A DNA stretch of 57,675 nt from Bdellovibrionales bacterium (lineage in GTDB: Bacteria; Bdellovibrionota; Bdellovibrionia; Bdellovibrionales; UBA1609), in contig JAAOIH010000008.1 in assembly GCA_015163875.1 (NCBI GenBank), positions 1 through 57,675 of the forward strand, given 5' to 3'. The notes under the pieces are model-generated. The model was not told the origin of the DNA and did not search any database. It was given only the letters and a program-made list of their open reading frames with translations. Positions within the stretch are counted from its first letter, which is position 1. Each line of letters starts with the position of its first letter. Below are positions 48,696 to 51,421 of this stretch, in pieces. Made by a program: the position numbers and the translations under genes.

Positions 48696-50555
48696 ATGAA
48701 ATATCAAAAAATTGGACCATATATTTTATTACAAAAAATTGCCGCTGGTGGCATGGCAGATATTTTTTTAGCCAAAAAATCTGGGCCTAATAATTTAAAT
48801 AGCTTTTATGCTGTAAAAAAAATTCTAGAAAAATATGCAGAAATGCCTAAATTTCATAAAATGTTTCATGAAGAGGCTAAAATAACCAATGCATTAAGCC
48901 TAGATATTCATAAAAATGTAATGACTTCGGCCACTTATGAAAAGGTTGGATCTTCTTATATTTTTGTAATGGAGTATATTAAGGGTCTAAATTTAAAGCA
49001 TTTTTTAAAACTTGCGGATAAAAAAAATAGTCCAATTGGCTTAGAGGCGGCTTTATATATAACTGCAGAAATAGCCTCTGGGTTAGATCATCTTCATAAT
49101 TTAGTAAATCTAAAAACTGGACAGCCTCTAAATCTAATACATCGTGATATTAGTCCTCAAAATGTGATGATAAGTCATAATGGTCAAATTAAAATTATCG
49201 ACTTTGGTATAGCGAAAGCTTCTATTTTGGAAGAAACTCAAGCCGATTCTGGAATAAAAGGAAAAATGGCATACATGAGTCCGGAGCAGGCGACTGGAAA
49301 TAGTCTAGATAACAGAAGTGATATTTTTTCTTTAGGAATTATGCTTTGGGAGTTGCTTGCAAAAAAGCGTTTGTTTTTAGCAGACTCTAGCATGGAGACA
49401 TTAAGAAATGTTAGGAATTGTGAAGTTCCAAATATTAAAACTTTTAATCCTAATATATCTCCAGAAGTTGAACAAATTTTAAAAAGAAGTTTGGCAAAAA
49501 ATAAAGAAGACAGATATGCTCGTGCTACAGATTTTGCTCAAGATTTATATAAAGCATTGCAGGGAAAAGAAAATTTTTCTTCTTATAACTTTGAAAAATT
49601 AGCAAAAAATATTTACACAAATGATATTATAAAAAATAGAAGACTTTTAGCAAAGTACATTAATCTTTCTTTAGATGGAAAAAATTCAGCTGTAGATATT
49701 ACTAATATAGGTGTGGATTTTGACAAAATAGGAAAAGAAGAAACAGAGGATCTAAGCTTGGTAAAAAGTGAAATGCCCAGTAGCCCTGTTGTAAATACAT
49801 TAATTGATAAATTTGAACCTGCCCATGCGCACAATCAGACTGGTAAAAATAAACACAAAAAAAATATAGATTTTAATTTAAATACCGTTGTTGAGCATCA
49901 AATAAAATCAAAACAAAGAAATTTATTAGCAGCACAAGCTAAACTTAAAAAATCTGCATTAAACTATAAAATCTCTAGCAATACTCATACAGGATATACT
50001 AATACTAAAACATTTAGAAAAAAAACTAAAAACTCTCCTTTTTTTGGAATAGCATTTAGTGCGTCTTTGGCAATTGCTGGATTTTTTTTATTTTCTAGTC
50101 CAAATCAGCAAAATTCTTTAATACAAAAAATTGTAAAATTAAAAAATAATATTGCAAAACAGCCAAAAAATAATATTGTAAATATTGTGTCCCCTGTAAC
50201 AAAAAATATTATATCAGACTACGCTAATAAAAAAATTAATGTCCGTGATGCTGTAGCAGCTGCAACTATCTTAACTTATTTTCATACTAAACCAGCAGGA
50301 GTAGAAATCTTTGTTGATGGAAGGCCTGTAAATATTTCTCCAAATAATATTGAGCTTCCAAAAAATAAAATAGTAGAAATAACTTTAAAAAAATATAAAT
50401 ATAAAACAGAAAAATTTAAAATAAACACAAATTTACTTTTGAAAAAAAGAAGAAGTCCTGCATCTATAAAAAATAATATAATTATCAACAGTCAGGAAAT
50501 ACTAATAACTTTAAAAAAGTTAAAAATCTTTAATAAAAGCGGAACTTCTGAATAG
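48696..50555 (+). CDS. Hanks-type Ser/Thr protein kinase with TM and PEGA domain
   Basis: IAAGGMADIFLAKK, NLIHRDISPQNVMI, KIIDFGIAKA, GKMAYMSPEQATG; C-terminal TM then THTKPAGVEIFVDGRPV (PEGA). Confidence 0.93.
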   Translation: MKYQKIGPYILLQKIAAGGMADIFLAKKSGPNNLNSFYAVKKILEKYAEMPKFHKMFHEEAKITNALSLDIHKNVMTSATYEKVGSSYIFVMEYIKGLNLKHFLKLADKKNSPIGLEAALYITAEIASGLDHLHNLVNLKTGQPLNLIHRDISPQNVMISHNGQIKIIDFGIAKASILEETQADSGIKGKMAYMSPEQATGNSLDNRSDIFSLGIMLWELLAKKRLFLADSSMETLRNVRNCEVPNIKTFNPNISPEVEQILKRSLAKNKEDRYARATDFAQDLYKALQGKENFSSYNFEKLAKNIYTNDIIKNRRLLAKYINLSLDGKNSAVDITNIGVDFDKIGKEETEDLSLVKSEMPSSPVVNTLIDKFEPAHAHNQTGKNKHKKNIDFNLNTVVEHQIKSKQRNLLAAQAKLKKSALNYKISSNTHTGYTNTKTFRKKTKNSPFFGIAFSASLAIAGFFLFSSPNQQNSLIQKIVKLKNNIAKQPKNNIVNIVSPVTKNIISDYANKKINVRDAVAAATILTYFHTKPAGVEIFVDGRPVNISPNNIELPKNKIVEITLKKYKYKTEKFKINTNLLLKKRRSPASIKNNIIINSQEILITLKKLKIFNKSGTSE

Positions 50556-50581
50556 CTAAGGTTATTTAATAAGGAAATTTT

Positions 50582-51421
50582 ATCTATACACATTCAATTA
50601 AAAATATTTTAATTTTTTACAAGAATGATTGTAAAAAATCAAAAGATACTGCAAAAAAATTATCTGCATGGTTTAAAGAAAAAAAAAAGAATGCGTCTAT
50701 TGTTTCTAGCTCAAAAAAGATTAAAATAAACAGCAATTGCGACCTTGTAACTACAATTGGTGGCGACGGAACATACTTAAAGGTTGCTAAATTATTTAAA
50801 ACCAAGTCAATACCAAGTGTAGGCATCAACACTGGGTCTTTGGGTTTTTTGACACATGTTTCTGAAAAAAAAATGAAAAGTTTTTTTAATAAAGTTTTTT
50901 CTAAAAAAGCTATTTTACATAAACATAATTTAATAAAAATAAAAATAAAAAATAAAATTTTTTATGCTCTTAATGATGTGTCTATAGAGCGTAATAGTTT
51001 AAGCAATTTACTTTCTTTAAAAGTTTGCTTATTTAAAAAAAAAATTTACACTATAAAATCTGATGGAATTATTTTATCTACGGCCCTTGGGTCAACGGCA
51101 TATAATTTAGCAGCAGGTGGCCCAATACTGCACCCCTCTTTACAAAATATATCTATTACTCCAATTGCTCCGCATAGTTTAACTGTTAGGCCAATTGTTT
51201 TAAACGATAATTATCAAATTAATATTCAAATAAAAAAAACAAAACATAAAAATAAAAATAAATCCACACTAAGTGTTGATGGCAAAAGATATATTATGCT
51301 TAATCAGGGCGATGATATACATATTAGTAAGTCGCCTTATCAGCATTATATATTAAGAGAAAGTAATTTTAATTATTTTTCTATACTAAAAGAAAAATTT
51401 AATTTTGGAGAAAGAGGTTAA
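50582..51421 (+). CDS. nadK: NAD kinase; start inferred to be a non-canonical ATC (50582) or ATT (50597)
   Basis: In-frame translation upstream of the listed TTG (50840): IYTHSIKNILIFYKNDCKKSKDTAKKLSAWFKEKKKNASIVSSSKKIKINSNCDLVTTIGGDGTYLKVAKLFKTKSIPSVGINTGSLGFL. GGDGT and NTGSLGFL are hallmark motifs. In-frame TAA at 50570-50572; SD-like AAGGA at 50571-50575. Confidence 0.9.
   Translation: MYTHSIKNILIFYKNDCKKSKDTAKKLSAWFKEKKKNASIVSSSKKIKINSNCDLVTTIGGDGTYLKVAKLFKTKSIPSVGINTGSLGFLTHVSEKKMKSFFNKVFSKKAILHKHNLIKIKIKNKIFYALNDVSIERNSLSNLLSLKVCLFKKKIYTIKSDGIILSTALGSTAYNLAAGGPILHPSLQNISITPIAPHSLTVRPIVLNDNYQINIQIKKTKHKNKNKSTLSVDGKRYIMLNQGDDIHISKSPYQHYILRESNFNYFSILKEKFNFGERG

Follow-up and report, generated by a model that had tools for sequence, protein, structure and literature searches.

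The window (the whole stretch of 57,675 nucleotides that was analysed) contains a single open frame of 282 codons on the forward strand, at positions 50573–51421, which opens after the TAA at 50570–50572 and carries nadK. The gene upstream, on the same strand (48696–50555), encodes a Ser/Thr protein kinase (PF00069, E 9.8e-39), and its stop lies 26 nt before an ATC codon at 50582–50584; judging by its similar C-terminus, the ORF preceding nadK in the sister species described below also encodes this kinase. The earliest ATG, GTG or TTG in the nadK frame was the TTG at 50840–50842 (codon index 89), and the GGDGT motif was found at codon index 62, i.e., upstream of this TTG. On re-reading, all of the coordinates given in the original prediction (TAA, AAGGA, ATC, ATT and TTG 50840) were correct, as was its observation that no ATG, GTG or TTG precedes a TTG that itself lies past GGDGT. 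The truncation that it ascribed to ORF callers was also reproduced, since a caller restricted to ATG, GTG and TTG returned only 50840–51421 (193 aa), a false start. A protein begun at this TTG would be without the catalytic motif as well as strand 1 and helix 1.

The product of the frame, read from the ATC (50582–51421, forward strand, 279 aa plus TAA), was compared with domain models, sequence relatives and solved structures. Matches were obtained with PF01513 (59.2 bits, cut-off 25.5) and PF20143 (103.4 bits, cut-off 23.7). The NCBIfam NAD kinase models were also matched with a best E value of 1.6e-57, yet below their equivalog cut-offs, and the sequence relatives in the PDB supported the same identity. 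The invariant alignment columns, i.e., the GGDG motif and the ALND, SDG and GSTAYNLAAGGP blocks, were all present. The AlphaFold2 model of the AUC-started protein (pLDDT 91.2) showed the full NAD kinase fold including strand 1 (residues 8–13, counted from the AUC) and helix 1 (residues 18–33), with a pLDDT of 96–98 across residues 11–40, and Foldseek matched it to solved NAD kinases along its length, the top match being the Pseudomonas NAD kinase 7mh7 (E 6e-30, TM 0.88). By domain content, sequence relatives and predicted fold, the gene is thus predicted to encode an ordinary NAD kinase.

The source genome (G000; 1.29 Mb in 50 contigs) was compared with that of a sister species (G001), the only congener among the genomes compared; both are draft assemblies, and each gave one nadK match. 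The NAD kinase of the congener was 79% identical to that of the window, and its gene likewise had no standard start for a full-length protein. The first ATG, GTG or TTG in its frame was a TTG within helix 1 (codon index 30), from which a shorter protein could keep GGDGT without strand 1. The 5' end reads TAA GGA AAT TTT ATC TAT ACA CAT TCA ATT AAA AAT ATT in the window and TAA AAG GAC CTT ACA ATT TAC ACT ACT TTC ATT AAA AAT ATT in the congener. An alignment of the upstream region with a close relative, as the original prediction had proposed, gave an ATT at the position of the ATC with the Shine-Dalgarno sequence (SD) kept: the codon position and the 6-nt spacing are the same in AAGGA-n6-ATC (AAGGA at 50571–50575) and AAAAGGA-n6-ATT. 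From this codon on, the aligned pairs ATC/ATT, TAT/TAC and ACA/ACT are three successive synonymous third-position changes, and the pairs upstream of it are non-conservative. A log-odds coding change-point, trained on this genome pair, fell exactly on the ATC/ATT codon. The shared lack of a standard start exceeds chance, and the comparison of the two sequences indicates that nadK almost certainly starts at a non-standard AUH codon (AUU, AUC or AUA).

The original prediction had left two candidate codons, the ATC at 50582 and an in-frame ATT at 50597–50599. The second immediately precedes the KNILIFYK strand, does not differ between the two genomes, and would give a compact N-terminus. Nevertheless, its SD pairing energy was only −0.6 kcal/mol in the source genome and +1.3 kcal/mol in the congener, against −5.1 kcal/mol for the ATC and −6.6 kcal/mol for the ATT of the congener (AAAAGGA), calculated with the anti-SD sequence (...CACCTCCTTT) read in the congener's 16S tail. 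Furthermore, the three synonymous changes sit upstream of ATT 50597, and codons 50582–50590 consequently look coding. Of the two candidates, the ATC was favored by its SD, the change-point and the ATT of the congener, and ATT 50597, lacking an SD, was not retained; initiation there is improbable. On the basis of the SD pairing and the position of strand 1 in the model, the start was placed at 50582, and initiation at this AUC, with AUU as its counterpart in the sister species, is very probable from the two sequences. The pairing at the ATC was stronger than that of 62% of the ATG-first genes of the source genome (the medians for ATG-first genes were −3.8 and −4.0 kcal/mol in the two genomes). 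The SD of nadK is average, unlike the extended SD reported for other AUH starts. The N-terminal peptide expected from the AUC start is MYTHSIK or MYTHSIKNILIFYK, and that expected from ATT 50597 is MKNILIFYK.

Entry into the nadK frame by slippage from an upstream or overlapping frame, which the original prediction had raised for the A-run, or by read-through of the stop codon, was also considered. The window does hold an out-of-frame ATG 52 nt past the opening of the frame, whose reading runs through a run of 10 A, and the congener has an in-frame ATG 30 nt upstream, opening a 9-aa ORF terminated by the TAA. However, the out-of-frame ATG of the window comes after strand 1 begins and cannot supply the conserved N-terminus, and no in-frame start exists upstream of the window's TAA, so read-through is not common to both species. 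The 5' region of nadK in the congener has no out-of-frame ORF of sufficient length; slippage is excluded there because no start in the other frames leads into nadK and no A-run of at least 7 is present. Entry by either route is hardly credible, and it would not predict the N-terminal stretch IYTHSIKNILIF (or its fMet form). An assembly or base-call error that removed a normal start, or a decaying gene, might likewise be suspected from two draft assemblies. Nonetheless, the same lack recurs in a second species amid many neutral differences, which makes the sequencing error envisaged in the original prediction unlikely as the cause, and the motifs of the enzyme are all intact in the single nadK match of each genome; this explanation is extremely improbable.

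In total, 118 nadK loci were examined for a standard start located 48 or more codons before GGDG, 116 of them scored automatically and two read by eye (L006, ATG; L181, GTG). Only the window, the congener and one locus truncated by its contig end (L244) had no such start; hence, among about 115 loci outside the two congeners, no full-length nadK without a standard start was found. An alignment scan of the genome contigs yielded no nadK loci other than distant ones, and these were used as controls; a direct protein scan of the contigs gave no matches. An ATG, GTG or TTG at this place in relatives, foreseen in the original prediction as a possible counter-finding, was absent in the congener; more distant relatives do have such starts. 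Since the relatives use ATG, GTG or TTG, these sequences indicate that an AUH start is probably a derived state of nadK in this genus. Many nadK genes of the same family seem to use GTG or TTG, judging by the first in-frame start, and the AUH start perhaps arose from an already weak one.

Other AUH starts were sought by comparing 1.147 Mb of the source genome with 1.150 Mb of the congener, which yielded 738 ortholog pairs with a minimum length of 110 codons. Simple protein alignment of all ORF pairs gave mostly false leads (similar upstream DNA and antisense shadows), and a synonymous/non-synonymous change-point was used instead; scoring the SD of the best start column of each pair was too noisy and was discarded. 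In 9 of the 738 pairs, all standard starts of both genomes were located over 10 codons downstream of the change-point. In six of these nine, inspection by eye showed an ATG where a homologous N-terminus is plausible; the rest are nadK, truA and a large uncharacterised protein overlapping greA.

The truA gene (G000 C46:35177–36101; G001 C7:41297–42197) lacks a standard start in both genomes and would begin at an ATA in each; in the congener, only AGA GAT AAA ATA lies between the stop and KVLL. Position 2 of TIGR00071 aligns to the residue after this ATA, which places the ATA at model position 1. This ATA shares bases with the rpmG stop in the sequence ATAA, equivalent to an ATGA overlap with AUA in place of AUG; alternatively, a −1 slip at A AAA TAA may occur there. 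Three other genes, a membrane orphan, gspJ and rnpA, matched more loosely. The membrane-anchored orphan without Pfam match (G000 C33:40413–41070; G001 C38:10816–11491) showed GAGG followed by ATT TTT AAA in both genomes, its first standard start lying at codon 137 in G000, and constitutes a weaker case. In a gspJ-like gene, the ATG of G000 (C46:63035–63869) is replaced in G001 (C7:70935–71766) by an ATT directly after AGGAGGcttctg (AGGAGG), with the next standard start at codon 62, past the prepilin motif.

Three further loci were observed. The rnpA gene of G000 (C11:17068–17446) has no standard start and an ATA overlapping the rpmH stop; that of G001 has a standard start. A gene of the CysZ/EI24 family in G000 (C47:15700–16435) is without the standard start present in G001, and abuts a short upstream ORF ending in MDRDIMRDHI. 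A large uncharacterised membrane protein is encoded directly downstream of greA (G000 C48, minus strand, 923–2531; G001 C35:27061–28684), and neither genome offers a standard start for it within 35 codons; it looked AUU-started, and its N-terminal signal overlaps greA.

These cases raised the possibility that start selection has loosened throughout the genus, through a changed IF3, initiator tRNA or genetic code, and that nadK is one symptom of it: truA, the membrane orphan and gspJ also appear AUH-started, and infC no longer belongs to the AUH class. The rate of about 3 in 738 pairs is nevertheless close to that of conserved AUH starts in Listeria, 6 of 2265 genes (PMC13068326). The initiator tRNA (tRNA-fMet) is normal. 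A reading of AUA as Met was rejected, as AUA exchanged with ATT 509 times versus 69 with ATG and still behaves as Ile. A special IF3 residue (M at the position of E. coli R131) was rejected as well, this position varying across the family with R, M, V, H, S or Q in relatives. Moreover, a placebo test of SD-positioned AUH sites showed no general enrichment, with 11 ATT observed versus 9.6 expected, 2 ATC versus 1.0 and 3 ATA versus 5.2. A genus-wide loosening is therefore very improbable. AUH starts are a handful here, not a genome-wide habit, and the genus is not unusual in their number, because the rate resembles the published baselines for Listeria and for E. coli, in which infC and pcnB are AUH-started (PMC4245954). 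Switches to AUU are rarer still when counted from annotation (2 of about 69,000; PMC5622118), but annotated genomes hide starts of this kind.

In both congeners, infC appears to start at TTG (UUG) after a very strong SD (G000 C33:21574–22318; G001 C31). Seven related infC loci (among L031–L038), only three of them from the same family and the rest from the same order, had no usable ATG, GTG or TTG at the start; inspection by eye gave ATT, ATC or ATA downstream of an SD instead. These sequences suggest that the classic AUH-based feedback of IF3 may have been lost in this genus.

In the proposed mechanism, the 30S would be placed by the AAGGA upstream of the AUC, and the initiator tRNA would read AUC or AUU with a third-position mismatch, the protein still beginning with Met. 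By analogy with other systems, IF3 would discriminate against such a start, giving a low output of NAD kinase and a yield that follows the IF3 level. Reporters of AUH starts reach about 10% of AUG elsewhere (PMC13009471), and in Listeria ATA lies above ATT (PMC13068326); by this analogy, a reduced output is likely. The gene may be regulated through IF3 in the way demonstrated for sigR (PMC5472188); a purposeful IF3 switch on nadK, drawn from the same analogy, is unlikely. The nadK leader showed no special structure (fold z −0.17) and no Rfam match.

The known AUH-started genes include infC and pcnB (PMC4245954), ccpN, cvfC1 and infC (PMC13009471), and infC and rnhC (PMC13068326). The infC gene, with its AUU, AUC or AUA start autoregulated by IF3, resembles nadK in being a chromosomal housekeeping gene with an AUH codon after an SD, conserved between species; in contrast, nadK is metabolic and no IF3 feedback is implied, and infC itself reads UUG in this genus. 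In E. coli pcnB (AUU), Listeria rnhC (ATC), and S. aureus ccpN (AUA) and cvfC1 (AUU), a conserved AUH start limits one enzyme or regulator, as proposed for nadK (PMC4245954, PMC13068326, PMC13009471). Unlike that of nadK, these starts were proven experimentally, and those of S. aureus lie behind extended SDs. The GTC start of Streptomyces sigR, repressed by IF3 (PMC5472188), is also a conserved non-standard start of a redox-linked gene, although it is GUC and not AUH and its role was shown by mutation, whereas the redox link of nadK is an analogy. Finally, the NAD kinase gene ppnKB of Bacillus subtilis is repressed at initiation by the RoxS sRNA (PMC4409812) and so resembles nadK in the limitation at translation initiation that is proposed for the latter, but there an sRNA acts on an ordinary AUG, and the Rfam comparison gave no sign of an sRNA at nadK. 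No AUH-started NAD kinase was found in the open-access literature, most subscription journals lying outside this scope, and such a start is apparently unreported so far.

Only a small number of genes have a proven AUH start, and the presence of such a codon, in two species, in the gene for a near-universal metabolic enzyme adds a clean new example. Callers limited to standard start codons cut this core gene back to a point beyond its catalytic motif. A natural contrast is available within the genus between infC, which reads UUG, and nadK and truA, which carry AUH. It might be that the IF3-sensitive class of starts was re-dealt here, with infC leaving it through its UUG start, and thereby losing the AUU-type feedback, and nadK, truA and a few others entering, in which case the level of IF3, freed from this self-limitation, would set NADP supply and tRNA modification; this is a quite unlikely reading. 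With its AUH start, nadK allows a link between the discrimination of start codons and the supply of NADP to be tested.
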